Source: a virus. Taken from it: a stretch of DNA of 22,471 bases. The stretch covers positions 1-22,471 of the IMG/VR virus record IMGVR_UViG_3300025671_000591; one strand, 5' to 3'. Below are positions 1,152 to 19,330 of this stretch, one piece after another (the first letter of the stretch is position 1; each line of letters starts with the position of its first letter). The notes beneath the pieces were generated by a model. It was not told where the DNA came from and ran no database searches. It saw nothing but the letters and a program-made list of their open reading frames with translations. The position numbers were made by a program, and so were the translations under genes.

Positions 1152-1155
1152 GCTG

Positions 1156-1976: not shown

Positions 1977-1982
1977 CGTGCA

Positions 1983-4422: not shown

Positions 4423-4423
4423 C

Positions 4424-4906
4424 ATGGCCTTTACTGGAAACTTTATGTGTACCTCTTTCAAGAAAGAACTCTTGGAAGCGAAGCACGATTTCACCGCCGC
4501 AGGCGATCTTTTCTTGATTGCTTTGTACACAAACTCTGCAACGTTTGACGCTTCTACAACTACCGCTGTTTTTGGTGGTGGCAATAACGAGGTTGCAGAT
4601 AGTGGCAGTTACTACTCTGGTGGACCAACAGTTGCGAACGTTTTAAGTAACAACAACCTAACCAATGCTGCACCCAGCAGTAGCGGCACTACAGGTTTTT
4701 CTTCGTTCACAACTAAGACGTTTACATCCGCAACAATCACTGCTCGTGGCGCGTTGATTTATAACTCACAAGCAGAGGGTGGTACTACAGATACAAACAC
4801 TGTTTGTGTTCTAGACTTTGGAGCCGATAAGACATCAACGTCTGGCGATTTTCAGATTGTGTTCCCAGCTAACAACGCATCAGATGCTTTGATTCGTATC
4901 GCATAA
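4424..4906 (+). CDS. Conserved beta-rich phage structural protein, 160 aa
   Basis: A strong AGGAG at 4411-4415 lies 8 bases before the ATG. The protein begins MAFTGNFMCTSFKKELLEAK, then LFLIALYTNSATFDASTT, a Ser/Gly/Asn-rich middle, and ends TITARGALIYNSQ, VCVLDFGADKTSTSGDFQI and ALIRIA. This is a pattern I know well from marine and other phages, where it lies at the head of the fibre region and is presumed structural (ring-like or carrier for appendages). The role is not demonstrated. It is the first gene of the beta-rich appendage block; the ten bases before the next gene hold a weak GGTGG. Confidence 0.75.
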   Translation: MAFTGNFMCTSFKKELLEAKHDFTAAGDLFLIALYTNSATFDASTTTAVFGGGNNEVADSGSYYSGGPTVANVLSNNNLTNAAPSSSGTTGFSSFTTKTFTSATITARGALIYNSQAEGGTTDTNTVCVLDFGADKTSTSGDFQIVFPANNASDALIRIA

Positions 4907-4915
4907 GGGTGGATA

Positions 4916-7072
4916 ATGGTCACTTTAGCCAACCGCGCAAAAGTTGCTACAGCAACAACAGGCACTGGGACCGTCACTCTTGGTGCAGCAGAAGACGGGT
5001 TTCAAACCTTTGCCTCCGCAGGTATTACTGACGGACAAACCGTTCGTTACACTATAGAAGACGGGGCGGCGTTTGAAATAGGCACTGGTGTATACACAGC
5101 CAGTGGCACAACACTAACTCGTGTTCTTTTAGAAAGTAGTACGGGGTCTTTGCTTAATTTAAGTGGAGACGCGGTTGTGTTTGTAACTATCGCTGCGGAA
5201 GATATAGTTCCAGAAAGTGGTGGTACGTTTAGCGGCGTTGTTGGCTTTGGCAATTACACAGACTTTACAGCCATTAATCACCCAGCGCATCAAGAAGGTC
5301 GTGTGTTTTATGACAATGAGCATAAAACGCTTAATTATTACAGCGACGTTTCTAATGTATCGCATGAGATAGGTATCGAAGAACATCAACGTGTATATAA
5401 CAATACAGGGTCTACTATCTTAAAAGGACAACCGCTTTACTTTAGTGGAAATCACTCTGTTGGTACATATGAGATTCCAACTGTTGGTTTAGCAGATGCT
5501 ACGGATGTAAACGCATACAACGCACAAGGTCTTGCTGCAGGAGATATTGCTGATGGCGCAGAAGGATACTGTATTATTGCAGGTCAAATCTTTAACGTAG
5601 ATACGTCAGGGCTAAACGCTGGCACAAACTTCTTTGTTGGTCTTACTCCGGGGGCAGTGCAAAACGCTTCACCTACATACCCCAACTTTCCTATGTGTTT
5701 GGGGTGGGTTGTTGCTTCAGATGCAACAAATGGCGTTCTTCTTGTTAATCAACAAAACCACTCTGTAAATAGTTTTAGAGTACGCACAGACACGCATATC
5801 GGTGGGGATATGCAGGTTGATGGCGACCTTACTGTATTAGGTACGCAGATAATCGCGTCTTCTGCTAATCTTGAGGTCGGTGGTTCTATCCAATACCTAA
5901 ACGCTGGTGATACGATTGGTGAAGCAAACACCAACTTTACTGGTACAGGTTTAGACGATGCGTTTTACTCAGGGCATTACACTGGCACCACAACTAACTT
6001 AGGGTATTACCTTCGCATTGATGGCACTGGAACGCCGGACACGTTTGAATGGGGGCATGACCCAACTTTTGCTACGACAATAGCAACAGGCGTTGCCATT
6101 ACTGGTGATGCTCAATTACTTGATAACGGTATAAGTATAGATTTTGGTGCAACCACTGGACACACTTTAGGGGATAAGTGGGACGGTACAGCCTCTCCTG
6201 TAGATATTGATACGGGCCTATTTACAAATAGAAACACTGGCGGGACTGGTGTTGGCTATACGCATATGGGTTTGTTCTATGACGTATCCGATGCGAAATG
6301 GCGGTTTGTGTCTGAGTATGGTCCTGAACCTGTTGCCCCGATTAATCCGGGGGACGCAAGCTACGTTTCAGGGGTAGTAGTCGCAGACACTTTTGAGGGA
6401 GCGTTTTCTGGTAATGTTACGGGTAACGTTACAGGCGATGTTTCTGGTAATCTTTACTTGGGCCAGTCTCAAAACATAACTTTTGAAGGTGCAACGGCTG
6501 ATGATTTCGAAACAGTTGTAACTGTAACCGACCCTACGGCAGATCGTACTGTAACTATACCCGATGTCACAGGTACGTTCATAACGACAGGTAATCTTAC
6601 AGATATAACTAACTTAGGTGTCTTAACTGGTGATATTGTCTTTGAGGGTGCAACTGCTGATGACTTTGAGACTACGCTAACTGTTACTGACCCCACAGCA
6701 GATCGCACGATTACGCTTCCCAATGCTGATGGTACTGTTGTCCTGCAAGACAGCAGCGGTGATATTTCCGTAGCAAATGGCGACAAACTAATATTTGGAA
6801 GCACTGGAAGCACCTACATAACGGGCGAAGACACTGGCCCAGATAGTTTTGAAATATACACTGATGGCTCAAATCGTCTTACAGTAGACCAGTATGGCAT
6901 CCTAGTCGCTAACGGCTTGCCGTTTTCATATCAGAACGCAGCGGGTACATTCTATACAAACCTACAAGCAACTGACCCAACTGCTGACCGCACATTCACT
7001 TTACCTGATGAGTCAGGTACAATCGCAACACGAAGTAAGGCGTTTGCTTACGCTTGGATATTCGGAGGATAA
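4916..7072 (+). CDS. Tail fibre/appendage protein with DPTADRT repeats, 718 aa
   Basis: The N-terminal ~100 residues ([48 protein letters not shown], ending in [10 protein letters not shown]) are a widespread attachment-type domain of phage fibres. Residues about 100-300 contain a second conserved region ([20 protein letters not shown], then [17 protein letters not shown] and [19 protein letters not shown]). The rest is Gly/Thr/Asp-rich beta sequence. Between residues 523 and 706 are three copies of an [11 protein letters not shown] / TDPTADRT(I/V/F)T(I/L)P unit, typical of trimeric fibre shafts. The likely role is a virion appendage used in host binding. GGAGG at 7064-7068, inside its 3' end, serves the next gene. 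Confidence 0.75.
6482..7033 (+). repeat. Three fibre-shaft repeats (DPTADRT units)
   Basis: Unit 1 (6482-6592) and unit 2 (6641-6751) both begin [11 protein letters not shown] and continue [10 protein letters not shown] and a TIP/TLP strand; they differ at many third codon positions. Unit 3 (6950-7033) keeps only the second half ([19 protein letters not shown]). The repeat is coding and in frame in the 718-aa fibre. Confidence 0.8.
7064..7068 (+). promoter_or_regulatory. Ribosome-binding site fixing the start of the 119-aa protein
   Basis: GGAGG lies 5 bases before the ATG at 7074 and inside the last codons of the 718-aa fibre gene. It decides against the upstream in-frame ATG at 7008. Confidence 0.75.
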
Positions 7073-7073
7073 A

Positions 7074-7433
7074 ATGGCAAACCCTAACCTTTTAAATCTT
7101 ACTTCAGTATTGGGCGAAAGTTTTATAACGAACTTAACAACCTCAACTGTGGACTTGGTTTCAAACGCAGCTAGTAGCAATAAACTGTACCGGGTTAACA
7201 GTATAATAGTAGCCAATATAGATACAGTTAACGCAGCCACAGTTGACGTAACATTTACTCGTGCGGGGGGTATTCGTTATATAGCTAGAGATGTGAATGT
7301 TCCCGCTCAAAGTACTTTAATTTTACTAGCAAAGGATTCCGCTGTTTATTTAATGGAGAATGATAAAATAAGTGGGTCCGCAAGTGCAAGTTCTGATCTA
7401 ACTATTATTATCTCATACGACGTTATGGAGTAA
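7074..7433 (+). CDS. Small conserved beta-sandwich-like virion protein, 119 aa
   Basis: The start at 7074 is chosen because GGAGG (7064-7068) precedes it by 5 bases and it lies just after the upstream TAA. A longer frame from 7008 would run backwards into the fibre gene. The sequence is MANPNLLNLTSVLGESF, ..STVDLVSNAASSNKLYRV, NSIIVANIDTVNAATVDVTF, ARDVNVPAQSTLILLAKDSA, and ends in DLTIIISYDVME. The pattern (MANP.+.N.TS, NAA.S.K.+++N.+.V.N.D, +A..+.VPA..TL..+.+) is a family I know from many cyanophages and other marine phages, carried beside tail or fibre genes and probably virion-associated. It has no enzymatic motif. Confidence 0.75.
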   Translation: MANPNLLNLTSVLGESFITNLTTSTVDLVSNAASSNKLYRVNSIIVANIDTVNAATVDVTFTRAGGIRYIARDVNVPAQSTLILLAKDSAVYLMENDKISGSASASSDLTIIISYDVME

Positions 7434-7436
7434 TTT

Positions 7437-8432
7437 ATGGTTAATAGATGGCGCATAAATGGCGGGATCATAGGTAAAGAGATTAGTTATGGTGATAACG
7501 ATTCAGGTGTCTGGTCTTTAGAATCTCCCTATTTAAATCTAAACGTGGTCCCTGCAGGAGAAGCTCTTTTTACCACCACAAATACAACTATTAACTGGAA
7601 TGTGCCAGCAGGTGTAACAGAAATTGCCTGCGTAGTTATTGGTGGCGGAGGGGGCGGATCGGCTTCCACACTTTCTTCGAACGGTGTTTCTGGCGGAGGC
7701 GGCGGAGGTGGCGGTCTTCATTGGAGAAATCTAACAGTAGCTGCGGGAGACTTGCTGCAAATTTATGTAGGCGCAGGCGGCACTGGCGGAACTTCAGCAG
7801 GAAATAACAACGCAACTTCTGGAACTTTAAGTCGCATTCTTAATGCTTCTAGCTCTTATCTTTTGAGAGCAAACGGCGGCACCAGAGGTTCTTATAATGT
7901 AAGTAGTACTGGTTCTGTATCTGGTGGGGCTACATATTTTGGAACATATGGCGGCGGAGGCGGTACTGGCGGTGGGGGCCGCAATGGCGCAAACGGTAAT
8001 GGAGGCGGAGGCGGCGGAGGAGCCGGGGGATATTCTGGTAACGGCGGTCTTGGTGGGTATTATAATAGTGTTGGCACAGGTGGCGCAGGTGGCGCAGGTG
8101 GTGGAGGCGGAGCGTGTAACGGGTTTACAGGCGCTGTAACAGCAGGTGGCGGCGGAACGATGCCTTATGGAGAGGGAACAAGCGGAGCGGTAGCAACTTC
8201 TAATAACACTGGCAGTCAGACAGCTATTCAAGGTTTTCAGGGGTCTCCTGTAAGTGGGACGTTAGCTTCTCAGGTTTATGGTGGCGGTGGAACAGGTGCA
8301 GAAGACGACTCTGGCGGTGCTGGAGGGTCTGGCGATCCGGGGGTAGTTAGGATTATTTGGGGGACAGATAGACAGTTCCCAAGCACTAACACTGCCGAAT
8401 CTTTTAGTAATGGGAACGTGACAACGTACTAG
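7437..8432 (+). CDS. Glycine-rich adhesin/tail-tip-like protein, 331 aa
   Basis: The N-terminus MVNRWRINGGIIGKEISYGD is followed by a short beta region and the motif TTINWNVPAGVTEIACVVIG. That motif opens a long glycine-rich region (roughly residues 70-300) with runs of 6-8 Gly and strand-like spacers. The W.VPAGVT...V.++GGGGGG start is what I know from the Gly_rich_2-type phage domains. Poly-Gly receptor-binding tips, as in the gp38 adhesins of T-even-like phages, use Gly-rich helices bundled into a sandwich, so a receptor-binding tip is a reasonable inference. It ends VVRIIWGTDRQFPSTNTAES, as is common in such proteins. The gene lies between a small beta protein and the Trp-repeat protein. 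Confidence 0.7.
   Translation: MVNRWRINGGIIGKEISYGDNDSGVWSLESPYLNLNVVPAGEALFTTTNTTINWNVPAGVTEIACVVIGGGGGGSASTLSSNGVSGGGGGGGGLHWRNLTVAAGDLLQIYVGAGGTGGTSAGNNNATSGTLSRILNASSSYLLRANGGTRGSYNVSSTGSVSGGATYFGTYGGGGGTGGGGRNGANGNGGGGGGGAGGYSGNGGLGGYYNSVGTGGAGGAGGGGGACNGFTGAVTAGGGGTMPYGEGTSGAVATSNNTGSQTAIQGFQGSPVSGTLASQVYGGGGTGAEDDSGGAGGSGDPGVVRIIWGTDRQFPSTNTAESFSNGNVTTY
7640..8316 (+). repeat. G-rich tract encoding the polyglycine region
   Basis: The sense strand is full of ggcggagg/ggtggcgg clusters (for example near 7643-7656, 7693-7713, 7948-8030, 8081-8110 and 8280-8290). They encode repeated Gly runs. The complementary shadow frames are long for the same reason and are not genes. Confidence 0.75.
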
Positions 8433-8438
8433 ATAAAC

Positions 8439-8876
8439 ATGTTAGGTTATAGCCCCATAGCATCTGCGACGTTAGCTTCTACAGGTAGTGTAAATGTAGA
8501 AGTTGTTATTGTTGGTATTGAGGCAACTGGGGTTCTTGGTACGGCAGAGGGCCGTGCAGGTGCGGATATATTTATAAATGGGTTCGAGGTTCAAGGTCTG
8601 CTCTTTCCTCCAGATGTATTCCCGGGGACGGGTGTTACTATAAATATAACAGGTTTTGAACTTCAAGCGTTGTTGGGGTCATATACTGTTTGGGGCGATA
8701 TTGTCCCTGTTCCTACAGAGGATTGGCAGAACATAACACCTGTAGATAGTGCTGTATGGCAGAATGTAGCCGCGTCTAGTCCCGCAACTTGGGCAAACAT
8801 ACCTGTTACCCCTGCTACAAATTGGAACGATATTGCTCCAAACCCCGCAACAGAGTATACTGAGATCAAACCGTAA
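8439..8876 (+). CDS. Appendage protein with GFExxGxLG and 11-residue Trp repeats, 145 aa
   Basis: After an N-terminal MLGYSPIASATLAS, residues about 20-82 carry three copies of an 'I.I.G(F/I)E..(G/A).LG' strand repeat: VVIVGIEATGVLG, IFINGFEVQGLL and INITGFELQALLG. From residue 85 there are perfectly spaced units with an aromatic residue every 11 positions (W85, W96, W107, W118, W129, Y140), each of the form W-x-(D/N)-(I/V). The first part resembles the inserted strands of the nozzle protein at 17414-17677. No enzymatic motif is seen. The protein is probably an elongated virion component, perhaps a short fibre or a link to neighbouring appendages. It starts 6 bases after the preceding stop and is followed 12 bases later by the next fibre gene. 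Confidence 0.65.
   Translation: MLGYSPIASATLASTGSVNVEVVIVGIEATGVLGTAEGRAGADIFINGFEVQGLLFPPDVFPGTGVTINITGFELQALLGSYTVWGDIVPVPTEDWQNITPVDSAVWQNVAASSPATWANIPVTPATNWNDIAPNPATEYTEIKP
8691..8873 (+). repeat. 33-bp-phase repeats encoding 11-residue Trp units
   Basis: The codons for W85, W96, W107, W118, W129 and Y140 lie exactly 33 bases apart, starting at tgg 8691-8693. Sequence between them is diverged (GDIVPVPTED, QNITPVDSAV, QNVAASSPAT, ANIPVTPATN, NDIAPNPATE), but Pro and Ile/Val keep their places. Confidence 0.75.
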
Positions 8877-8888
8877 CGGAGAAACTTC

Positions 8889-9716
8889 ATGGTAACTTAC
8901 GCAGACAACACTGGTATTACCCTTATCGGAACCGGAGAGCAGTCTGGTACATGGGGTGAAACTACTAACAACAACCTAGAAATCATTGACCGCCTTACAA
9001 ATGGGGTTGGCTCAATTGAAGTAACAAACACACACGCAAAGACTATCACGACAACGAATGGTGCTTTGTCTGAAGGCCAGTACGCTGTTCTTGTATTTGC
9101 AAATGGAACTCCTGCTCCTACAGCTACTGTAACCGTAACAATTAATCCTAACGACCAAGAAAAAGTTTTTATAATAAAAAATAACTCTACAGAAACTATG
9201 CTGTTTACTCAGGGTAGTGGAGGTAGCGTAACTGTCTTTAGCGGCAAATCTGCGATCATATATTGTGACGGTGGAGGACCAACCGCTAGTATTGTAGATG
9301 TTACAAGCACATTTGATTTCCAGCCATTAAGTTCAAGTCTTACTGAAATCGCCGCGTTAGCTAAAACCTTGTCTTACGGGATTGTTGGAAACGGTTTGGC
9401 TTATGTAAGCACGAGTGATTCCACAGATGCGTTCCTCATGCCTGCAGGTACTACTGCTGAACGCCCTGCTCCTACTGAGGGTATGATTCGCTATAACAGC
9501 GATGAGACAGCGTTCGAAGGATATGCAAATGGTCGGTGGGGCGAGATTGGGGGTGGCGGTAACCAAGCTGGTGGTGCCATAAGCGTTAACAAAACTACTG
9601 CTGATGAAAGTTATACGTTTCCTTCAGGTACAAACGGTTTTTCTGTCGGTCCTATTACAGTGGCAGCGGGTGTAACTATAACAATTTCAAATGGGCAACG
9701 TTGGGTTGTGATCTAA
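8889..9716 (+). CDS. Tail fibre/appendage protein, 275 aa
   Basis: The N-terminus has the motif GTGEQSGTWGETTNNNLEII (residues 14-33), a widespread opening domain of phage fibre proteins in marine phages ('G.Q.GTWG.TTN.NL...'). It is followed by a beta-rich region containing VFIIKNNSTETMLFTQG, then FSGKSAIIYCDGGG. A segment PAGTTAERPAPTEGMIRYN, ending FEGYANGRWGEIGGGG, is the common phage 'T.A.RP..P..G.+RYNS....+E.Y..G.W' linker. The C-terminus (VGPITVAAGVTITISNGQRW) is also typical of fibre ends. The likely role is a tail fibre or a shaft/attachment component. GGAGA precedes the ATG with a short gap, and its stop is followed by the strong AAGGAG (9715-9720) of the next gene. Confidence 0.75.
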   Translation: MVTYADNTGITLIGTGEQSGTWGETTNNNLEIIDRLTNGVGSIEVTNTHAKTITTTNGALSEGQYAVLVFANGTPAPTATVTVTINPNDQEKVFIIKNNSTETMLFTQGSGGSVTVFSGKSAIIYCDGGGPTASIVDVTSTFDFQPLSSSLTEIAALAKTLSYGIVGNGLAYVSTSDSTDAFLMPAGTTAERPAPTEGMIRYNSDETAFEGYANGRWGEIGGGGNQAGGAISVNKTTADESYTFPSGTNGFSVGPITVAAGVTITISNGQRWVVI

Positions 9717-9726
9717 GGAGCGAGAC

Positions 9727-10233
9727 ATGAGTAAAATATCCGCAGGAATTACAACTCTTACCGCGTTGCAAAGCGAAGCAGATGTCAGCGGTGAACTGCA
9801 ACTACGCACTAATGGCTCAACGACAGCACTGACGTTAGGCACGGATCAGTCTGCTACATTTGCTGGGGCAGCAACCTTCTCGTCTACGGCTACGGTAAGC
9901 GGTGGTTTGAACGAAAGCCAAGTAGACATAACAGATGCAAGTCCTGTGATAGACTGTTCTGCGGGGAATGTCTTTGCTATTACTACTACTGGGAATCCAG
10001 TAGCGTTTACTGCATCTAATGTCCCAGCTTCAGGCACTGCTTATGGGTTTATTTTGAAGATTACCGCAAGCGGTACAGTAACCGTAAACTACGCAGGATT
10101 AGGCACATTATATTGGGCTGGTGGCACGGCACCTGACGCACCTGCTTCTGGTGAGACAGACGTACTTGGGTTCTTGACATATGATGGCGGCACAAGCTGG
10201 TATGGATTCCTAGCGGGAGACGCAATGGCATGA
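9727..10233 (+). CDS. Fibre connector/adaptor protein of cassette 1, 168 aa
   Basis: AAGGAG (9715-9720) lies 6 bases before the ATG. The N-terminus (MSKISAGITTLTALQSEADV, then SGELQLRTNGSTTALTLGTD) is a known short fibre-domain pattern. The C-terminal ~95 residues (SPVIDCSAGNVFAITTTG, SGTAYGFILKITASGTVTV, GGTAPDAPASGETDVLGFL, SWYGFLAGDAMA) are clearly related to the same region of the gene at 11692, and more distantly to the one at 14664. Each is followed immediately by a large beta-rich protein, so I infer that this small protein anchors or joins that protein to the virion. Its stop overlaps the next start as ATGA, which suggests coupled, perhaps equimolar, synthesis. Confidence 0.7.
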   Translation: MSKISAGITTLTALQSEADVSGELQLRTNGSTTALTLGTDQSATFAGAATFSSTATVSGGLNESQVDITDASPVIDCSAGNVFAITTTGNPVAFTASNVPASGTAYGFILKITASGTVTVNYAGLGTLYWAGGTAPDAPASGETDVLGFLTYDGGTSWYGFLAGDAMA

Positions 10234-11681
10234 GCCTAACCAGCTTTATATCTATTTTATCGGCAGCATCCACAAGTGCGCTTAAAGGTCGAGTGGACGG
10301 TCAATTGGTTACATGGCCTGAACTTGGAACTTTTATAAGTAAGATGCAGTTTAATGCAGTGAGCGGTAAACACGCTGTAAGGCTTTCAGATACTAGTGGT
10401 AGGGTTCCCAATACCGTAGGTGTCTTTGGCTTGTTAGATTCAAACTGTACTGATTTTTTGTGGGCATTCTACGTTATAAACGCAGCGGGGTCAGGCGGAA
10501 AACAAGTACAAAGTTTATTAGATGTTTGTATAGATGCCTCTGACAATGTTTATTTCCTAATAAGGATAGCTACAAAGCATTTTGGTATGGGTAAAGTTTC
10601 TCCATCTGGCACTGTGTTGTGGTACGTGGAATGTGATGAATCTGCGAACGGATCATTTATTTCATTAGATTTTAACTCAATAGCAGCAAATGATACAACT
10701 GTTTTTACTTCTGGTAATGGTCGAGAAAACGCATCTTCAAATCCACATGGTGTAATACGTGCTAATGCCTCTTCAAATGGAGGAGACTATACAGGGTATG
10801 CTGGGAAAAGGGCGGGTTATTGTACATTAGGGTATTACAACTCTACCGCTTCTAGTTTTGCGAATAGATCAACAATGGTTTACAACGGAACTGAAGACCG
10901 TGTTATTGTTTCAGGTAGCGATACTGGTAATGGTTATAGTATAATTAGTAACTGGAATTTAAAAACAGTAAATGGTTCTTCTTCCGATACAAGTGCGGTA
11001 TTCAGTCAAGAATTTGGCTATAATTATTCATTTTACACAGAGCCGTGTGCCTTATTCTCTGTGTTTTCCAGACCACATGATACAAGCTCTGGTGGCAAAT
11101 ATGTTTGCTACGCGGGTCGAGTTAGGGACAATTCATCACAGAGTTTTTATTATGGTCATGTTGCCATGCTGAATGAGGTGTCGAGCAGTACTGGTCAAAC
11201 TAATAGATTTCAAAGAGGCGTTTACATTCAAGATAGCTCTAATGTAGTACCAACCACTATGCAAGACGCTGTATACACAACGGAATCGGATGGGACTGGA
11301 AGCTATCCGTTTTATTTTAGATACCAATCAGTTCTTTTTAGAAATGGCTATGCTCAAACCAATAATACAACCAACGATTACCAACTTTTGATTTCAAATT
11401 TTGGTACTATTCAAAACATGAGTGTTACATCAGATCACAACACAATTGTTTATGGAAATATGCCGGGTAATCTTACAGCTTTGTTTATACAACCAAAGGA
11501 TGGTAGTACATGGACAACAAATGCGGGTCTTTCTGTATCAACATACAGCGAGTACACACTTAATCAAGTTTTTGTGCCGCTTAATAACCAAACTAGCGGT
11601 GGGCCACCTTTTAATAACAGTCAAGCCAACAGCGAAGCAAACTATGCTGGCGCAACTCAGCCTACGTTGACACCCGTATAA
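10230..11681 (+). CDS. Distal fibre protein of cassette 1, beta-propeller-like, 483 aa
   Basis: The ATG at 10230 overlaps the upstream stop (ATGA). The protein is rich in Ser, Asn, Gly, Tyr and Phe. Phrases such as LLDVCIDASDNVYFLIRIAT, FGMGKVSPSGTVLWYVECD and a later VCYAGRVRDNSSQSFYYGHV recur in the style of SBBP/NHL-type beta-propeller blades ('V.+D.SGN.Y++....+....+.K....G...W'). It differs from the DUF7483-like proteins of cassettes 2 and 3. The C-terminal ~70 residues are low-complexity Asn/Thr/Pro. The likely role is a receptor-binding or other surface appendage tip; the beta-propeller assignment is inference from spacing and phrase pattern. It ends with AAGGAG for the next gene within its stop region. 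Confidence 0.65.
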   Translation: MSLTSFISILSAASTSALKGRVDGQLVTWPELGTFISKMQFNAVSGKHAVRLSDTSGRVPNTVGVFGLLDSNCTDFLWAFYVINAAGSGGKQVQSLLDVCIDASDNVYFLIRIATKHFGMGKVSPSGTVLWYVECDESANGSFISLDFNSIAANDTTVFTSGNGRENASSNPHGVIRANASSNGGDYTGYAGKRAGYCTLGYYNSTASSFANRSTMVYNGTEDRVIVSGSDTGNGYSIISNWNLKTVNGSSSDTSAVFSQEFGYNYSFYTEPCALFSVFSRPHDTSSGGKYVCYAGRVRDNSSQSFYYGHVAMLNEVSSSTGQTNRFQRGVYIQDSSNVVPTTMQDAVYTTESDGTGSYPFYFRYQSVLFRNGYAQTNNTTNDYQLLISNFGTIQNMSVTSDHNTIVYGNMPGNLTALFIQPKDGSTWTTNAGLSVSTYSEYTLNQVFVPLNNQTSGGPPFNNSQANSEANYAGATQPTLTPV

Positions 11682-11691
11682 GGAGACGAAA

Positions 11692-12162
11692 ATGGTAGTA
11701 ACAATTAACGGCACAACAGGTATTTCGTCATCTGGTAATATCGTGACGACGGGGTCTGGTTCTATTTCATCCGTTACAACTCTCACCTCTGTGGGCGATG
11801 CGACGATGGGCGCAAACCTAATTGCGGATTCCTATCAGGAGACTACGGCAGACCTGACGGGTACTAGCCCTGTAATAGACTGCGCTGTGGCTAATGTGTT
11901 TACCTTGACCACAAGCGGGGCTACAGCGTTTCAAGCGGCAACCAACGTGCCTACAACAGGGACTGGTTATAGCTTCATGTTAAAAATCACGGCAGGGGGT
12001 ACACATACTGTGGACTATGACCTGCTAGGGACAAACGTGTACTTCGCAGGTGGAACTGCCCCTGTCCCTCCTGCATCTGGAGAAACAGACATCTTGGTCT
12101 TCACGACTATAGATGGTGGTACAACATGGTATGGAGCGTTGGCTATCGACGCAGCGAGTTAA
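11692..12162 (+). CDS. Fibre connector/adaptor protein of cassette 2, 156 aa
   Basis: AAGGAG (11680-11685) lies 6 bases before the ATG. A short, variable N-terminus (VVTINGTTGISSSGNIVTTG) precedes a C-terminal region paralogous to that of the gene at 9727. Shared features, in order, are SPVIDC..(G/A)NVF..TT, TGYSFMLKITAGGTHTV, YFAGGTAPVPPASGETD and TTWYGALA. DNA identity in this region is visibly below that of a recent copy, so the duplication is old or was acquired separately. Only three bases separate its stop from the next start, and that start has no clear ribosome-binding site of its own, so expression of the following large gene probably depends on translation of this one. Confidence 0.7.
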   Translation: MVVTINGTTGISSSGNIVTTGSGSISSVTTLTSVGDATMGANLIADSYQETTADLTGTSPVIDCAVANVFTLTTSGATAFQAATNVPTTGTGYSFMLKITAGGTHTVDYDLLGTNVYFAGGTAPVPPASGETDILVFTTIDGGTTWYGALAIDAAS

Positions 12163-12165
12163 GAC

Positions 12166-14133
12166 ATGAGTCAAATCTCTAAAAATCAATTTTTTGCAGC
12201 GGCAGGAAATTCTGCGCAAGCTGGCCTGAATGTTGAGGAAGTATTTTCTACCTATCTTTATGACGGAACAGGTGCCACTCAATCAATTACTAATGACATT
12301 GATCTTAGTGGTGAAGGTGGCATGACTTGGCTTAAAATTAGGTCTCTTAATGGATATGACCACTCAGTATATGACACAGAAAGAGGTGCAAACAAACGAA
12401 TTGTTCCAAACAGCACTGGTGAAGAATTTACAAGAAGTGGTGGATTAACTAGTTTTAACAGTGATGGCTTTACTCTTGGAAATGCTGGAGATGAAAACCA
12501 AAGTGGTGCAAACATTGTTTCTTGGACATTCCGCAAAGCCCCTAAGTTCTTTGATGTGGTGACTTATACTGGGACAGGCAGTAATCAAAACATTTCCCAC
12601 AGCCTAGGTTGTGTTCCAGGGTTTGTAGTTGTGAAGAAAACATCTGGTACTGGAAATTGGTCTGCTTGGCACAGATCATTGCCAGATGCTAATGATTATA
12701 TACTTTTAAATACAACTAACGGAGCACTTGATGGTGGGTCTTCATATAATAGGAGTGTTACTGACACGACTTATCAAGTATTTGGAGACTATCCTGACGA
12801 AAACCAATCTGGTCAAACCTACGTAGCCTACCTATTCGCCCACAACGATGGTGACGGTGAGTTCGGCCCCACAGGGGATCAGGATATTATCAAGTGTGGG
12901 AGTTATACTGGTAATGGTTCATCTATTAATGGCCCAGAAATTGATTTAGGGTTTGAGCCAGAGTGGATTGTAATAAAAAGAACAGATGCTGCTGGAGGTT
13001 GGCATATAGGCGACTCAATGCGAGGCATTTCTAATGGAAGTGATGATCCTTATTTAACAGTAAGTCAAAGCGATGAAGGTCAATCATTTGATTGGTTGAG
13101 TTTAAGCGCAACAGGTTTCTCAATAACAACTGGCAGTCAAAATATAAATTTAGTTGGAGGAAGCTATATCTATATAGCCATACGCCGTGGTCCAATGGCG
13201 GTGCCTGAGAGTGCAACTGATGTATTTGCGGTACAGCCTTGGGACGGAGCGGCAGCTATTCCTCAATTTGTTTCTGGGTTTCCTGTTGATTTTGCAATTC
13301 ACAAAAATAAAACTGCTAACTCAGAAATTTTTTCAAGCGCAAGATTAACACAGCAACTCTATATGGAAACCAGCACAAGTCTGCTTCTTTCTTCAGATAC
13401 AAATTTTATGTTTGATTATCAGAATGGGTATTACGATGCAGCCACAAGTGCTAACTTTGTTTCTTGGATGTGGAGGCGTTCGCCAAACTTTTTTGATGCG
13501 CTTTTTTATAGAGGAGACTCTGTAGCAGGTAGGCAAGTACCGCATAATTTAGGAGCGGTTCCTGAAATGATATGGGTTAAGCGTACCGACGGCGCAGGAA
13601 ACTGGTGGGTATATCATAAAGACCAGCAGGCATCGACAGTAGGAGGGTTGCGGCCCCCTGAAAACTCTGCTTCTCGTTTAGATTTAGACAATATAGCTGT
13701 TGACGGTACAAACTATTGGAACGACACTTTGCCGTCTAGCACAGCGTTTACGGTTGGAAACTTGTCTAACACAAATGGAGTCGGAAACGACTATATGGCA
13801 TATTTGTTTACATCCTTGGCTGGAATTTCAAAGTGTGGTGGGTATATTGGGAACGGAACAACGTTATCTATCGACTGCGGTTTTTCTGCTGGTACTAGGC
13901 TTGTAATAATAAAACGAACAAATGCTACGGGCGGCTGGTTTATTTTTGATAGTTTGCGAGGTATGAGTTCTGGAAATGACAGCACATTAGAACTTAATGA
14001 CAGTGCGCCTGAAGTAATAAATGAAGATGTTATCGAGGCTACTACCACAGGCTTTAACGTAATAAATAGTGGTAGTACAGTAGATACAAATGATCTTAAT
14101 GATAGATACATTTTCTACGCGATAGCAACATAA
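12166..14133 (+). CDS. Distal appendage protein of cassette 2, six DUF7483-like modules, 655 aa
   Basis: After a leader (LNVEEVFSTYLYDGTG) the protein falls into six modules of ~90-116 residues: A 27-130, B 131-246, C 247-356, D 357-446, E 447-558, F 559-655. A and D close with FVSW/IVSW-type strands then (K/R)..P.FFD; B and E close with YVAYLF/YMAYLF; C and F close with YIYIAI/YIFYAI. The order is therefore ABC twice. Typical internal phrases are NISHSLGCVPGFVVVKKTSG, GTGNWSAWHRSL and GFEPEWIVIKRTDAAGGWHI. I recognise this as the DUF7483-type domain of marine phage fibres, function unproven; receptor or glycan binding is the obvious inference. It is paralogous along its whole length to the gene at 15107. 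Confidence 0.75.
   Translation: MSQISKNQFFAAAGNSAQAGLNVEEVFSTYLYDGTGATQSITNDIDLSGEGGMTWLKIRSLNGYDHSVYDTERGANKRIVPNSTGEEFTRSGGLTSFNSDGFTLGNAGDENQSGANIVSWTFRKAPKFFDVVTYTGTGSNQNISHSLGCVPGFVVVKKTSGTGNWSAWHRSLPDANDYILLNTTNGALDGGSSYNRSVTDTTYQVFGDYPDENQSGQTYVAYLFAHNDGDGEFGPTGDQDIIKCGSYTGNGSSINGPEIDLGFEPEWIVIKRTDAAGGWHIGDSMRGISNGSDDPYLTVSQSDEGQSFDWLSLSATGFSITTGSQNINLVGGSYIYIAIRRGPMAVPESATDVFAVQPWDGAAAIPQFVSGFPVDFAIHKNKTANSEIFSSARLTQQLYMETSTSLLLSSDTNFMFDYQNGYYDAATSANFVSWMWRRSPNFFDALFYRGDSVAGRQVPHNLGAVPEMIWVKRTDGAGNWWVYHKDQQASTVGGLRPPENSASRLDLDNIAVDGTNYWNDTLPSSTAFTVGNLSNTNGVGNDYMAYLFTSLAGISKCGGYIGNGTTLSIDCGFSAGTRLVIIKRTNATGGWFIFDSLRGMSSGNDSTLELNDSAPEVINEDVIEATTTGFNVINSGSTVDTNDLNDRYIFYAIAT
12254..14130 (+). 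repeat. Six-module (ABC-ABC) domain repeat in the 655-aa protein
   Basis: This protein-level repeat is described by residue ranges in the gene entry. The two three-module halves are roughly 12244-13233 and 13234-14130. Best marks are the strand-closing phrases at the end of each module. DNA identity between the halves is low. Confidence 0.6.
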
Positions 14134-14144
14134 CTCAAAGCCTG

Positions 14145-14152
14145 AAAGGAGA
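14145..14152 (+). promoter_or_regulatory. Ribosome-binding site of the assembly chaperone gene
   Basis: AAAGGAGA lies 8 bases before the ATG at 14161. It sits in the 27-base gap after the 655-aa gene, so the chaperone has its own strong initiation site and is not merely coupled to the gene before it. Confidence 0.7.
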
Positions 14153-14160
14153 ATCAACTA

Positions 14161-14646
14161 ATGGCTGAATATCGAAACCGAACAACTGGCGAAGTTAAAT
14201 CCCAAGGGGAGATTCGTCGTGACCACCCAAATATGTCTATACCTCGTGTGTGGAACGATGGGGTATGTGATGCGCTAAACGTGGACCCAGTGCTTCCGGG
14301 TACTCGTCCAACTCCGGGTCAGTATCAAACAGTGCGCCGTGACGGTGTAGAACAAAACGATGCAGGTGATTGGGTTGAGAAGTGGGTCGTTGCAGACATG
14401 TTTGCAGACGGAGAAGATGGCACTAAAGCCGAAAAAGAAGCGGCATACCAAGCTACTCTAGATGCGAACATCGCTGCTCAAAATCGCACTGCACGTAACG
14501 ACAAACTTGCAGAGACAGATTTCTGGGGTATGTCTGATATGACTATGAGTGCGGAAATGACTACCTATCGTCAAGCACTTCGTGATATAACTACACATAG
14601 CAATTGGCCCAACCTAGAAGAGGGCGACTGGCCTACGAAGCCTTAA
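14161..14646 (+). CDS. Phage tail fibre assembly chaperone-like protein, 161 aa
   Basis: A strong AAAGGAGA (14145-14152) lies 8 bases before the ATG. The C-terminal ~55 residues, RNDKLAETDFWGMSDMTMSA followed by TTYRQALRDITTHSNWPN and WPTKP, match the pattern of the phage tail assembly chaperone family (Phage_tail_APC, PF16778: 'R..LL..TDW....D.....E...YRQALRD+......P......WP..P') as I remember it. The N-terminal part (NRTTGEVKSQGEIRRDHP, and SIPRVWNDGVCDALNVDPVL) is the usual upstream region. Proteins of this kind help fibre or tail proteins fold. Its position between cassettes 2 and 3 suggests that it serves one or both of these large proteins. The next gene begins 17 bases later. Confidence 0.75.
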   Translation: MAEYRNRTTGEVKSQGEIRRDHPNMSIPRVWNDGVCDALNVDPVLPGTRPTPGQYQTVRRDGVEQNDAGDWVEKWVVADMFADGEDGTKAEKEAAYQATLDANIAAQNRTARNDKLAETDFWGMSDMTMSAEMTTYRQALRDITTHSNWPNLEEGDWPTKP

Positions 14647-14651
14647 ACGCT

Positions 14652-14656
14652 AGGAG
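14652..14656 (+). promoter_or_regulatory. Ribosome-binding site fixing the start of the cassette 3 adaptor
   Basis: AGGAG lies 7 bases before the ATG at 14664. This decides against a start at 14604, where no comparable site is seen and the frame would run through the chaperone gene. Confidence 0.7.
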
Positions 14657-14663
14657 TGACGAC

Positions 14664-15107
14664 ATGACTACACTTATAAACGCCGACACCGTATTAGGCG
14701 GAGCGATAGTGACAGGTGATGCTTCTGGGCAGCTTGGTCTTCAAGCTGCGGGGACGACATTAATGGAACTTTCGGGAAGTGTCGTCACTGTTTCAGGCGA
14801 TGCCTCTTTTGAAAAGTCTATTGTGGAAAACGTATATACACTGTCGGGTACAGAAATTGATCCCTCAAACGGAACAATTCAGACAAAAGTATTGTCCGCT
14901 CCAGTGACGTTTACTGAAAGCTTTTCGTCCGGGGAAAGCGTTGTTCTTATGATTGAGAATGGCGCAACTCACTCAATTTTGTGGCCCACTGTCACTTGGG
15001 TCACAAGTGCAGGGAATGCTGCGCCTACACCTACAGAAAAAGACACCTTTGTGTTTTGGAAAATTAGCACAACACTATACGGAGCTTATGTCGGGAGCTA
15101 CGTCTAA
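14664..15107 (+). CDS. Fibre connector/adaptor protein of cassette 3, 147 aa
   Basis: The start at 14664 is chosen because AGGAG at 14652-14656 lies 7 bases before it; the frame continues upstream to 14604 but only inside the chaperone gene. The N-terminal part (INADTVLGGAIVTGDASGQL, GLQAAGTTLMELSG) resembles short fibre domains. The C-terminus TEIDPSNGTIQTKVLSAPVT, then MIENGATHSILWPTVTWVTS and ending FVFWKISTTLYGAYVGSYV, is a common fibre-end domain ('G.IQT..L......W..V.W......LYGA'). It shares only the last part (AP.P...+T...W..YGA) with the adaptors of cassettes 1 and 2. TAATG overlap couples it to the large gene at 15107. Confidence 0.7.
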   Translation: MTTLINADTVLGGAIVTGDASGQLGLQAAGTTLMELSGSVVTVSGDASFEKSIVENVYTLSGTEIDPSNGTIQTKVLSAPVTFTESFSSGESVVLMIENGATHSILWPTVTWVTSAGNAAPTPTEKDTFVFWKISTTLYGAYVGSYV

Positions 15108-17098
15108 TGGCTAAACTATCAAAGGCTCTACAAGCAGCTTCGGTTTCGGATGCAGCAGGTCTAAATGTTGAAGATGTATTTAGTACTTATTTGTACACTG
15201 GTAATGGTGCAGGTGAAGGCACTGTTATGCAAACTATTGAGAATGAAATTGATCTTGATGGTCAAGGTGGGATGGTCTGGATTAAATCTAGATCAACTAG
15301 AGATCATAATTTACAAGATACAGAAAGGGGTATAGCCTCTCAACTAGCATCAAATACAGCAGATGAGGAAACTGTTTTTACAAATCGTATAAGTGCTTTT
15401 AATTCAAATGGGTTTGATTTGAAAGGAAACGTAGTTGTAAATGCTAACAATGAAGACTTCGCCTCTTGGTCATGGAGGAAAGCTCGTAAATTTTTCGATA
15501 TACAAACTTGGACCGGAAATGGCACTGCGGGTCGCGTTATCTCACATAATTTAGGCTCTCGCCCGGGTATGATTATTACTAAATGCTATAGCGATTCGGC
15601 CCCGGATTGGACTGTATGGCATACTAATAGAAACGGTACTAATACTCATCTAAGATTAAATGAGATAAACCTTCCCCAACCCGGAGAAGACATTTCAGCA
15701 GCAACAGATACAACTTTCACTGTTGGTAATGACAATAGAATTAACGGTGTTAGCCCACGTCAATATGTAGCTTATATATTCGGTAACAATAATGGTGATG
15801 GAAACTTCGGCCCTACAGCGGATCAGGATATCATTAAGTGTGGGTCTTATTCTGGTACAGGTGTTGATGGAAACTTTGTAGACTTAGGGTTTGAGCCTCA
15901 ATGGATATTAATAAAAAACGTTACAAATAATGCAAACTGGGTGATATATGATAACATGAGAGGCATTTCTTTGGAGGGACAAGACCCTTATTTAAGACCT
16001 GCAAATGATACTCAAGAGGGCGAAAATGAAGCTTTATCGTTACGCCCTGATGGTTTCGAATTACTTGGAAGCCACATCGAAAGTAATGCATCAGCCAATA
16101 CTTACATCTACGTAGCAATTCGTCGTGGTCAAATGGGTCTACCTGAAAGTTCAAGTGAAGTCTTCAATACCTTATTGAGGACTGGTAATGGCGTAGATAC
16201 GTTTCTTAACCAGCAAATTTTATGTGACGCAGTCTTTACTTTGTGCCGCTCAAATACCGAACCTAAAGTTACAAGCACTAGACTCTTTGCCAGCAGTAAT
16301 GGTAACGGGTTAAAAACAAGTACAGATGTTAATAGAGTGTTGACTAGTTTCGGCTTTGAGGGTTGGGACTACAACAACGGATGGCTGGTAGACGCTGGTA
16401 AAAGTGAAACAAATACACTTAATGAGGCTTATGTTAACTATGCTTTCAAAAGATCGCGTGGGTTCTTTGATATAGCTTCTTATCGTGGAGATGGGTCCAG
16501 TCAACTTACGGTTCCTCACAATCTAGGCGTAGTGCCTGAGATGATGCTTACTAAAATGTATTATAAAGACATTTCAGCAGGTTCTCCCAGTATTAGATTT
16601 TTTGCTTATCATAAAGATTTAGAAGCGACAGAAGGTTTGTGGTTTGATAACGATATAGCTGTAACAACAGGTCGTCTGTACTGGGGTAGTACTCGACCCA
16701 CAGCAGAAAACTTTTATGTGGGCGGTATATCAGACAACAACATAAACGCTTGTAAGTACATAAACTATTTATTTGCATCTGTTCCCGGTTTGTCAAAAGT
16801 TGGAAGTTATCAGGGCAATGATGGGACTCAGGCTATCGATTGCGGCTTTTCTAACGGAGCGCAGTTTGTAATTCTAAAGAACATAACGGGTATTGGAGAT
16901 TGGATCGTAGTAGATTCTCAAAGAGGGATTACCTCTAGCACCGATCCGTTTTTAGAGTTTAATACTACTATTCAAGAGCAAACCGACGACTGCGTATCAG
17001 CAAACAGTTCGGGGTTCAACGTAATTCAAAGTGTTTTTAATACAAATATAAATGCAACTGGAAACACTTACATCTTCTACGCAATAGCCGCTCCATAG
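15107..17098 (+). CDS. Distal appendage protein of cassette 3, six DUF7483-like modules, 663 aa
   Basis: The ATG overlaps the upstream stop (TAATG at 15105-15109). The leader LNVEDVFSTYLYTGNG is nearly that of the 655-aa protein. The module order is the same: A 24-131, B 132-247, C 248-354, D 355-455, E 456-566, F 567-663. Marks are DTERGIASQLASN, RKARKFFDI, NNNGDGNFGPTADQDIIKCG, LGFEPQWILIK, YVAIRRGQMGLPESSSEVF, VPHNLGVVPEMM and the end NTYIFYAIAAP. The two proteins are paralogues throughout but differ most in modules D and E. A receptor-binding appendage is likely by analogy; no catalytic residues are seen. This is the last gene of the appendage block before the nozzle gene. Confidence 0.75.
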   Translation: MAKLSKALQAASVSDAAGLNVEDVFSTYLYTGNGAGEGTVMQTIENEIDLDGQGGMVWIKSRSTRDHNLQDTERGIASQLASNTADEETVFTNRISAFNSNGFDLKGNVVVNANNEDFASWSWRKARKFFDIQTWTGNGTAGRVISHNLGSRPGMIITKCYSDSAPDWTVWHTNRNGTNTHLRLNEINLPQPGEDISAATDTTFTVGNDNRINGVSPRQYVAYIFGNNNGDGNFGPTADQDIIKCGSYSGTGVDGNFVDLGFEPQWILIKNVTNNANWVIYDNMRGISLEGQDPYLRPANDTQEGENEALSLRPDGFELLGSHIESNASANTYIYVAIRRGQMGLPESSSEVFNTLLRTGNGVDTFLNQQILCDAVFTLCRSNTEPKVTSTRLFASSNGNGLKTSTDVNRVLTSFGFEGWDYNNGWLVDAGKSETNTLNEAYVNYAFKRSRGFFDIASYRGDGSSQLTVPHNLGVVPEMMLTKMYYKDISAGSPSIRFFAYHKDLEATEGLWFDNDIAVTTGRLYWGSTRPTAENFYVGGISDNNINACKYINYLFASVPGLSKVGSYQGNDGTQAIDCGFSNGAQFVILKNITGIGDWIVVDSQRGITSSTDPFLEFNTTIQEQTDDCVSANSSGFNVIQSVFNTNINATGNTYIFYAIAAP

Positions 17099-17107
17099 AG
17101 GTGACCC

Positions 17108-19330
17108 ATGCCCTTACAAAAGTTACAGTTTAGACCGGGAATAGATAGGGAGACAACTTCGTACACAAACGAGGGTGGTTGGTACGATTGCGATAAAGTA
17201 CGTTTTAGGCAGGGGATGCCTGAAAAGATCGGCGGTTGGACTAGGCTTAGCAGTAACTCGTTCCTTGGCTCGTGCCGTGCATTACATACTTGGGCTACTC
17301 TATCTCTCAACAATTATTTGGGTGTTGGTACAAGTCAGAAATATTACATCGAAGAAGGCGAGGCATTCTTTGATATCACACCGATCCGGCAAATAACGGA
17401 CACACTCAAAGATATATCTATAAGCGTCGAAGGTGTAGAGGCTACCGCATCTGTCGGAGAGACAACAGTAGAAGTAAACCTAGAGACTGTGACAGGTCTA
17501 GAGGCAACAACGGCTATTGGGACTGTAGGTGTAATAACTAACCAAGACATGACTGTTGTTATAGGCAACGGCCTTACTGGACTGTCTATGTTTACTTTGC
17601 TTGGTGATGTGGACATGGTCCCTGATAACACCACGGTTACAATAGAAGGCTTTGAGGCGACAGGTACTCTTGGTTATGTCGTGCCATCATCGTCTACTTC
17701 AGATTCTCAAATTGATTTTAGTGCTACAGATGGATCATCTACAATTAACGTAAGCGAACCAGATCACGGCGCGGTGCTTGGAGACTTTGTCACCTTTAGC
17801 AGTGCTGTTGGGTTAGGCGGCAACATAACGGCTGATATACTTAATCAAGAGTATAAGATTGAATCTATTGTAAACGACAACAACTACACGATTATTGCTC
17901 GTGAGGTTGCTCCATTAAGTGACATTACAGTAGACGGACAGTATACACCTACCCCTGTTCTAGCTAACTCATCTGACACAGGTGACGGGGGACGTGCAAC
18001 GACGGCAAACTATCAAATTAATATAGGTATTGATTCGGCTGTTTTCGGAGACGGTTGGGGTGCCGGAGTTTGGAGCCGAGGAGCTTGGGGTTCGGCGGCT
18101 GATGTTAATGTGGTTACGGATACTTTGCGCTTGTGGTCACACGACAACTTTGGAGAAGACTTAATAATTAACGTGATAAATGGCGGCATTTATTATTGGG
18201 ATGCTTCTCAACAAAGGCCGCTTACAAAACGAGCCGTGCAATTATCCGATTTAGCGGGAGCGGATGGCGTTCCAACTATTGCGACAAAAATAATTGTTTC
18301 TGACGTTGATCGCCACGTAATTGCGTTTGGATGTGATTCTTTTGCAGAACCCGGAGTACAAGACCCACTACTGATAAGGTTTTCGGACCAAGAAAATCCA
18401 GCGGTGTGGCGACCCACGGCAACAAACACTGCGGGTGATTTAATCATTAGCCGCGGCTCAAAAATTGTTACTGCGCAAGAAACAAGACAGCAAATTCTAG
18501 TGTTTACAGATAAATCGTTACACGCAATGCAGTACATTGGTGCGCCATTTACCTTTGGTGTCAGCATGTTGTCTGAAAACATTACAATATCGGGTGCCAA
18601 GGCCGCGGTTGCTATTGAAGACGTGGTGTACTGGATGGGCCTTGATGAGTTTTATGTCTACACAGGTGCGGTACAAAAGCTGCCTTGCACGGTGAAAGAC
18701 TATGTCTTTAGTGACTTTAACTTTGAACAACGGGAAAAAGTTATTGCGTCATCTAATTCTTCTTTTTCAGAGGCTTGGTGGTTTTATCCTTCAGCAAATA
18801 GCTCAAACATCGACAAATATGTTGTATTCAACTATCAGCAAAACATTTGGTACTATGGTTCTCTAGCGAGAACGGCTTGGATTGATCGCGGAATTAACTC
18901 AAATCCTGTAGCAGCAAGTCCGGATAGTTACTTATATACGCATGAAAGCGGCTTCGATGATGGAAGCACAAACCCCGCTTCAGCCATTACAGCATATGTA
19001 GAGTCTAGCCAGTTTGACTTAGGTGAAGGCGATAGCTTTGCGTTTGTTCGTAGAATTATACCAGACATTACTTTCCGCAATTCTACTGCGACTACTCCTT
19101 CCGCAGACATGACCTTAAAAGCAAGAAACTTTCCCGGCGGAAATTATTTACAAACATCCGATAGCGGCATTTCAAGAAGTGCATCTGTGCCTGTCGAGCA
19201 ATTTACTCAAGATGCCAACATAAGAATACGGGGTCGATCCATGACTCTAAAGGTAAGCAGTGAGGATACCGGTGTTACTTGGCGCTTGGGGTCGCCTAGA
19301 ATAGAAATTAGACCAGACGGACGCAGATAA
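17108..19330 (+). CDS. Tail nozzle/packaged-DNA stabilisation protein, P22 gp10-like, 740 aa
   Basis: GAGGTGA (17098-17104) precedes the ATG. The N-terminus (LQFRPGIDRETTSYTNEGGW, then YDCDKVRFRQGMPEKIGGW) and the C-terminus (SSEDTGVTWRLGSPRIEIRP, DGRR) are the hallmarks I know of the marine phage proteins related to P22 gp10, a beta-propeller-containing tail accessory factor that seals the neck and forms the nozzle. Blade-like phrases include WSHDNFGEDLIINVINGGIY and EDVVYWMGLDEFYVYTG. Residues about 103-190 hold a repeated strand insertion (VEGVEATASVG, VTGLEATTAIG, IEGFEATGTLG). Residues about 205-262 hold an FCCH-like module (NVSEPDHGAVLGDFVTF). Both modules interrupt the N-terminal part and recur in other genes of this window. 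Confidence 0.7.
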   Translation: MPLQKLQFRPGIDRETTSYTNEGGWYDCDKVRFRQGMPEKIGGWTRLSSNSFLGSCRALHTWATLSLNNYLGVGTSQKYYIEEGEAFFDITPIRQITDTLKDISISVEGVEATASVGETTVEVNLETVTGLEATTAIGTVGVITNQDMTVVIGNGLTGLSMFTLLGDVDMVPDNTTVTIEGFEATGTLGYVVPSSSTSDSQIDFSATDGSSTINVSEPDHGAVLGDFVTFSSAVGLGGNITADILNQEYKIESIVNDNNYTIIAREVAPLSDITVDGQYTPTPVLANSSDTGDGGRATTANYQINIGIDSAVFGDGWGAGVWSRGAWGSAADVNVVTDTLRLWSHDNFGEDLIINVINGGIYYWDASQQRPLTKRAVQLSDLAGADGVPTIATKIIVSDVDRHVIAFGCDSFAEPGVQDPLLIRFSDQENPAVWRPTATNTAGDLIISRGSKIVTAQETRQQILVFTDKSLHAMQYIGAPFTFGVSMLSENITISGAKAAVAIEDVVYWMGLDEFYVYTGAVQKLPCTVKDYVFSDFNFEQREKVIASSNSSFSEAWWFYPSANSSNIDKYVVFNYQQNIWYYGSLARTAWIDRGINSNPVAASPDSYLYTHESGFDDGSTNPASAITAYVESSQFDLGEGDSFAFVRRIIPDITFRNSTATTPSADMTLKARNFPGGNYLQTSDSGISRSASVPVEQFTQDANIRIRGRSMTLKVSSEDTGVTWRLGSPRIEIRPDGRR
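17414..17677 (+). repeat. G(F/V/L)EAT strand repeats inside the nozzle gene
   Basis: Strand units VEGVEATASVG, VTGLEATTAIG and IEGFEATGTLG, with a more degenerate copy near IGNGLTGLSMFTLLGDV, occupy residues ~103-190. They match the GIEATGVLG / GFELQALLG strands of the protein at 8439. Confidence 0.65.

Follow-up and report, generated by a model that had tools for sequence, protein, structure and literature searches.

The window analysed in this study, meaning the whole 22,471-base IMG/VR virus record, is a single contig and a podovirus-like fragment in which virion genes (head-tail, virion structural, 'phage stabilization'-like at 17108-19330 and DNA-ejection-like) accompany an array of three gene pairs, each made up of a small protein, here called an adaptor, and a large partner, here called a tip. 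Open reading frames (ORFs) of 168/483, 156/655 and 147/663 amino acids (aa) were found at the three places named in the original prediction, joined as it had described by an ATGA overlap (pair 1), a gap of 3 nucleotides (nt), GAC (pair 2), and a TAATG overlap (pair 3). A gene absent from that prediction, a tail-fibre assembly chaperone at 14161-14646, separates pairs 2 and 3, and the array therefore runs A-B-chaperone-D in terms of the tail classes given in Table 1. Each adaptor ends in a C-terminal domain of ~95 aa, each large partner opens with a class-specific peptide of ~13-17 aa followed by an unrelated body, and the class of the adaptor tail matches the class of the tip start. From these sequences it is quite probable that the tips are non-covalent attachments docked by their N-terminal peptides onto the C-terminal domains of tail fibres, with several docking classes per genome.

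Table 1. Features of the fibre/tip array and its flanks in the window
Feature	Position	Strand	Remarks
Left flank of array, conserved	8889..9716	+	58-61% in relatives L366 and L367
Adaptor 1, short fibre, tail class A (...WYGFLAGDAMA)	9727..10233	+	Putative C-terminal docking domain 9910-10230; PHROG tail-fibre matches
Tip 1 (Big1, 483 aa), orphan body	10230..11681	+	Without Pfam, PHROG or tblastn relatives
Putative docking peptide of tip 1 (MSLTSFISILSAASTSA)	10230..10280	+	MS[LF]TxFIxxLxxxx pattern
Adaptor 2, short fibre, tail class B (...WYGALAIDAAS)	11692..12162	+	Putative C-terminal docking domain 11836-12159
Tip 2 (Big2, 655 aa), two DUF7483 domains (12241-13185, 13489-14127)	12166..14133	+	PF24299 E 2e-86
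Putative docking peptide of tip 2 (MSQISKNQFFAAAGNSA)	12166..12216	+	Class-B pattern MS[NQLK]I[SA]...; low-confidence helix prediction
Tail-fibre assembly chaperone (Phage_tail_APC / Tfa-like)	14161..14646	+	PF16778 E 1e-9; phrog_8716/4912
Adaptor 3, short fibre, tail class D (...LYGAYVGSYV)	14664..15107	+	Putative C-terminal docking domain 14805-15104
Tip 3 (Big3, 663 aa), two DUF7483 domains (15173-16120, 16310-17089)	15107..17098	+	PF24299 E 2e-82
Putative docking peptide of tip 3 (MAKLSKALQAASVSDAA)	15107..15157	+	Class-D pattern M[AS]KL[ATS]KALxAA behind LYGAYxGSY tails
Right flank, conserved: large virion protein resembling a 'phage stabilization protein'	17108..19330	+	phrog_3287 E 3e-72; 68-69% in L366/L367

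Adaptors 1 and 2 are paralogues, as had been claimed (60% identity across 106 aa, E 5e-38), and adaptor 3 is a distant relative (30% identity to adaptor 2, E 7e-6; profile-profile comparison of the adaptor classes, 95% probability, E 2e-8) that shares 55% identity across 97 aa with gp42 of the cultured Roseobacter phage CRP-1. The same domain terminates full fibres of 205-705 aa in the CRP phages and in ctnlZ23, a metagenomic phage, and fibres as long as 1374 aa in IMG/VR; because fibre length varies this far, the domain is a fibre end and not a small stand-alone protein family, and the term 'adaptor' understates what these genes are. The domain was C-terminal and directly 5' of a tip gene in every case found (0 exceptions). 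Searches of the Protein Data Bank (PDB) by sequence with adaptor-domain profiles yielded nothing useful. The large partners do come from two families: tips 2 and 3 are 39% identical end to end and hold two copies each of DUF7483 (PF24299; bit scores 290.9 and 277.3, cut-off 27), and tip 1 is unrelated to them. For tip 1, no relatives were found among phages, IMG/VR returned only its own near-identical contig, and neither Pfam nor PHROG gave a match; its body may be a divergent beta-propeller, to judge from a single weak and blade-like match to profiles of beta-propeller tips (hhalign prob 42, E 3e-4), and a model of the protein alone by AlphaFold2 (AF2) was unsuccessful (predicted local distance difference test, pLDDT, 34). 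No mention of DUF7483 was found in the open-access literature searched, and the name and description of its Pfam entry contain neither a tip role nor a docking peptide.

The window chaperone scores 38.6 bits against a Pfam gathering cut-off of 26.6 (Phage_tail_APC, PF16778) and is 45-69% identical to the gene 3' of DUF7483 in five CRP roseophages; a relative of it follows the DUF7483 gene in 64 of 80 cases. Another contig (L368, IMGVR_UViG_3300006870_000362) is 99.96% identical to window positions 335-12639, so pair 1 and adaptor 2 were assembled identically in another record.

Matching of adaptor tails and tip starts

Approximately 365 loci provided 425 genes that terminate in the adaptor domain and 303 different pairs of adaptor and next gene; the collections are redundant, the loci being the best 80 or first 120 of larger sets, and class 'o' rows, which include serial fibre genes that are not tip cassettes, were excluded from the class tests. 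The tip gene starts within a few bases of the adaptor gene, with spacing and stop/start overlaps typical of the class. GFLAGDA tails (class A) are followed by MS[LFV]T... starts and their relatives, nearly always across an ATGA overlap; GALAIDAA tails (B) by MSNIS[KR]...AAAG; GFTAGQ tails (C) by MATKKK[ML]LQAAAG; and LYGAYxGSY tails (D) by MSKL[AT]KALTAAAG or MAKL[AS]K.... The pattern at the start of tip 1 opens five tips behind FLAGDAM[AG] adaptors, and the bodies of these five differ; that of tip 2 likewise stands behind GALAIDAA tails with many unrelated bodies. Overall, DUF7483 forms the body in 187 of the 303 pairs, the rest including beta-propellers (SGL, Lactonase, SBBP, WD40), laminin-G-like domains and unknown folds.

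The correspondence was seen from both sides. Starting from the adaptor, nearly every adaptor gene (~80 loci) directly precedes a tip-like gene with a class-typical start. Starting from the peptide, an adaptor-domain (A1) gene lies directly 5' of 99 of the 100 evaluable MATKKKxLQAAAG genes, nearly all of the upstream tails being GFTAG[QL] or AGQ, and in the one remaining locus (L297) an inserted endonuclease VII gene separates adaptor and tip. Because this peptide query over-represents class C, an independent set retrieved by other means is quoted for the quantitative test. When only tips with unrelated bodies were allowed as neighbours and peptide-retrieved loci were excluded, the nearest neighbour over the first 16 residues belonged to the same adaptor class in 124 of 161 cases (shuffles: mean 45, maximum 71), while control residues 26-41 gave 35 of 161.

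The match ends sharply behind the peptide. Among DUF7483 tips retrieved without a peptide query, adaptor distance correlated with distance in the N-terminal segment at rho 0.55 in class A1 (n 52) and 0.86 in class A2 (n 32), compared to 0.20 and 0.50 for the body, and 12-column windows along the body had mean correlations with adaptor distance of 0.06 and 0.13, respectively. Same-class tips with unrelated bodies fall to ~7% (aa) and ~27% (nt) identity beyond residue ~17. In 97 MATKKKxLQAAAG genes the residues are fixed or nearly so, with at least five codons used for Leu8 and synonymous codons widely varied; the query itself partly accounts for the fixed residues but not for the codon variation. 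This combination indicates selection at the level of the protein.

Other putative docking classes were seen on DUF7483 bodies, whose starts there are of quite another kind, as are the ends of the fibres that precede them; this agrees with the start tracking the fibre and not the body. The start MPLQATSGAAS (class E) stands behind fibres ending ...LAS[NV]TQFKA in all 91 genes whose upstream sequence was long enough. A longer start of the form KRYxxNII...GVWSxxE...WPTxGN is shared by seven DUF7483 proteins and one other protein. Within the window, positions 7008-8432 encode a 141-aa beta-looking protein and, after a 3-base gap, a glycine-rich protein of 331 aa (Gly_rich_2); the start of the latter (...GGIIG...SGVWSLE) is faintly like the KRYxxNII...GVWSLE start of some DUF7483 tips, and these two genes are perhaps a fourth pair of a different type.

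Exchange of tip bodies and composition of arrays

The array was compared with those of relatives. The closest, L366, lies on a 33.7-kb IMG/VR contig and shares the array and flanks of the window, with adaptors 1, 2 and 3 conserved at 79, 65 and 70%, the chaperone at 77% and the right flank at 68%. The tips in its slots A and B (426 and 473 aa) have no detectable similarity to tips 1 and 2, and its slot-D DUF7483 tip is 40% identical to the slot-B tip of the window versus 36% to the slot-D tip, although slot-like starts are kept between the two (MSLTNFISLLGSSG vs MSLTSFISILSAAS; MAKLAKFLSSANG vs MAKLSKALQAASV). Nucleotide homology stops at 10252, 22 nt into tip 1, and restarts at 11680; it stops again at 15118, 12 nt into tip 3, and restarts at 17068, apart from short conserved patches of DUF7483. 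In a second relative (L367) the order is A-B-chaperone-C-chaperone, and the first part of its third adaptor resembles adaptor 3 while the tail is of class C. The proposal that an adaptor is inherited together with an exchangeable tip therefore holds in part: the system is modular, with cognate pairing by class and several tips per genome, and adaptors and chaperone are kept in L366, but an adaptor is co-inherited only with the first ~13-17 residues of its tip, and it is not whole pairs that change, since the bodies are replaced independently, as at tips 1 and 2.

Bodies also change slot, and the peptide changes with them. There were 124 cross-class pairs with bodies at least 50% identical, including a 365-aa body that is 94% identical in slot B (L294) and slot A (L301) and a body of ~253 aa that is 93% identical in slot A (L028) and slot B (L035), each copy with the start typical of its slot. 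In a swap test, the peptide was nearer to the class of its own slot in 192 of 238 tips.

Nuclease-type genes were seen exactly at the fibre/tip junction, namely one of the endonuclease VII family (L297, minus strand, 9225-9703) and one of GIY-YIG/NUMOD3 type (L375), and an HNH-looking, Pfam-negative ORF lies at this position in a further locus (L386). Class-E junctions hold an insert of ~655-676 bp in 17/91, the single Pfam-positive case tested being GIY-YIG/NUMOD3-like. It is conceivable that such junction genes might drive tip exchange.

The classes combined in one genome are mostly different: 35 of 39 arrays contain only differing classes (shuffle mean 26.7, p 0.0008). Cultured phages carry the same units. 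In the Roseobacter phages CRP-1, -4, -9, -13 and -603 and in ctnlZ23, a fibre ending in the adaptor C-terminal domain is followed by a protein with two copies of DUF7483 and then by a chaperone; the Phage_tail_APC chaperone of cultured phages is part of a fibre-tip-chaperone unit. This gene order recurs in Limnohabitans phage DC31 with a different tip (start MDSISQKMLMGAAG), followed by a Phage_tail_APC chaperone (E 1e-19), and CRP-603 has an extra stretch of ~240 aa, laminin-G-like by eye, between the typical start and the body of its DUF7483 protein. Three other loci (L130, 5623-6948; L131, 235-1566; L166, 1093-6004) contain serial genes that each join a DUF7483 body to a C-terminal adaptor domain and end with a final DUF7483 tip and chaperone, possibly a daisy chain of beads. 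Elsewhere in the window, a phrog_28581 domain is common to a small protein at 2651-3148 and an insert (~17711-17890) of the 17108-19330 protein, and is also present in the large protein of the window's relatives.

A proposed docking model, its alternatives and known systems

The arrangement can be read as a set of sockets and plugs. Each pair would encode a short tail fibre, probably a trimer, and a tip made as a protein of its own; the socket would be the C-terminal ~95-aa beta domain of the fibre, and the plug the first ~13-17 residues of the tip, predicted as a short helix followed by an Ala/Gly-rich hinge. With different socket/plug classes in one array (A FLAGDA, B ALAIDAA, C FTAGQ, D LYGAYxGSY and others), every tip would be expected to dock on its own fibre, while the body behind the plug (DUF7483 pairs, beta-propellers, laminin-G-like domains or orphans) could be freely replaced and the Tfa-like chaperone would assist assembly. 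Physical docking, the trimeric state, a position at the fibre end and receptor binding are all inferred from sequence, and it is plausible that all three tips are displayed at once on one virion.

Several observations weigh against this reading. In an AF2 model of the in-frame read-through fusion of adaptor 2 and tip 2 (monomer, 69 paired rows), the adaptor domain reached pLDDT ~63-85 and DUF7483 was mostly above 90 (domain 1 ~95), but the plug was a helix at pLDDT of only ~50; because of this no interface can be read from the model, and none was seen between adaptor and tip. PDB searches with adaptor and DUF7483 profiles found no solved homologue for either the socket or DUF7483. The tail classes were defined by eye after inspection of the data, the first ~12 peptide residues taken alone correlate more weakly with adaptor distance in A1 (rho 0.31), and 46 of 238 tips in the swap test were not nearer to their own class. 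Peptides of classes A and B are partly similar, so the orthogonality of these two slots may be incomplete. Finally, linkage of adjacent DNA would likewise correlate adaptor and peptide, although it leaves the sharp border unexplained.

In a viral structure library, the proteins matched by the fusion model are DUF7483 proteins and the C-terminal parts of fibres, that of CRP-4 among them, and a Foldseek search of the PDB with the adaptor-DUF7483 model returned no confident fold (best TM 0.34). The best structural matches of DUF7483 included the beta-rich/APC-beta domains of apicomplexan PLP1 (TM 0.21-0.34) and, more weakly, the C-terminal domain of PCSK9; domain 1 combines very high prediction confidence with no well-matching solved fold. 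Toxin-B matches in the PDB profile search were attributed to chance (E 0.3-0.9).

There are several potential explanations other than docking onto the fibre. The tips may bind the tail hub, or several sites on it, by their N-terminal peptides and independently of the adaptor, the correlation reflecting DNA neighbourhood only. Adjoining segments are indeed co-inherited, the correlation between adaptor and body is weak but nonzero, and KP32-like systems dock an N-terminal peptide on a branching domain of another protein (PMC13082707); however, the correlation ends behind the peptide without a gradual fade, the tips of one genome bear different peptides despite a common hub, DUF7483 bodies bear other peptides behind fibres with other termini, and the invariable place of the socket domain, C-terminal and directly 5' of the tip gene, also makes hub binding unlikely. 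It is very unlikely that the conserved start is a DNA-level device without a protein interface, such as a joint for homologous recombination or a signal for translation coupling: although the borders of DNA homology coincide with the start, endonuclease genes (endonuclease VII, GIY-YIG/NUMOD3) sit exactly at the junction in some phages, and stop/start overlaps are class-typical, the 13 residues are fixed over strongly variable synonymous sites, and classes with differing DNA share a lysine/alanine-glycine pattern at the protein level.

The original prediction also raised the possibility of a reservoir for switching, with one pair expressed at a time. Several paralogous pairs do stand in tandem, but this idea found no support and is highly improbable: switching is rejected because positions 8800-17400 contain 0 inverted repeats of at least 20 nt; moreover, no recombinase was recognised among the window ORFs, all six genes are intact with closely coupled starts, and the pairs of a genome are mostly of different classes, which a reservoir that replaces genes in place would not need.

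Docking onto the fibre C-terminus thus remains the favoured reading, and a broader form of it is somewhat favoured: that the fibre tips of marine and freshwater phages are addressed by a shared, portable code with four or more socket/plug classes, generally used once per genome, through which unrelated binders are loaded at set fibre ends, with some lineages (L130, L131, L166) perhaps chaining tips and bodies moving by exchange behind the ~17-residue plug. The host range of most uncultured marine phages cannot be read because their tips are too diverse to be recognised. If the plug rule holds, the first ~15 residues and the position of a tip could be enough to recognise it, orphan bodies such as that of tip 1 included; its fibre partner and the site of exchange could be read, and single virions would be predicted to bear several unrelated binders at defined fibres. 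The cultured roseophages CRP-1, -4, -9 and -13, like Limnohabitans phage DC31, would allow the rule to be tested.

No description of this marine socket/plug system was found in the open-access literature (most subscription journals lay outside the search), and solved fibre or tip structures gave no match by sequence. As to a T4gp10-like branching domain in the adaptors, PDB sequence searches gave nothing useful and the Foldseek match to a Klebsiella phage baseplate chain had a TM of only 0.14. In one study, host-recognition modules with a cognate fibre chaperone, found in Alteromonas phages V22, A5 and P24, are common to distant families (PMC10579305). These too are marine phages with a fibre and chaperone module, but the sections consulted describe fibre-chaperone pairs only and no separate tip with a docking peptide (PMC10579305).

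The docking principle itself is already known from T2-type gp37/gp38 and from KP32. In T2, PP01 and Salmonella phage S16, a separate tip adhesin is attached by its N-terminus to the C-terminal end of a trimeric fibre, and PP01 gp38 functions on T2 gp37 only once its N-terminal 113 residues are exchanged (PMC12892980). As in those phages, the tip gene here is directly 3' of the fibre gene and the tip N-terminus fits the fibre C-terminus, as judged here by class matching only; in contrast, the matching part comprises ~13-17 residues, several classes occur per genome, and the tip bodies have many unrelated folds, none of them a Gly-rich PGII-sandwich. In Klebsiella phage KP32, a 'conserved peptide' docks RBP2 on the anchor-branching RBP1, so that both systems would use a short conserved N-terminal peptide to dock an exchangeable binder on another virion protein (PMC13082707). 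The socket of KP32, however, is a T4gp10-like branching domain between the RBP1 anchor and its enzymatic domain (PMC13082707), whereas here the putative socket is a C-terminal domain, encoded by the gene immediately 5' of the tip gene, and comes in repeated, differing classes.

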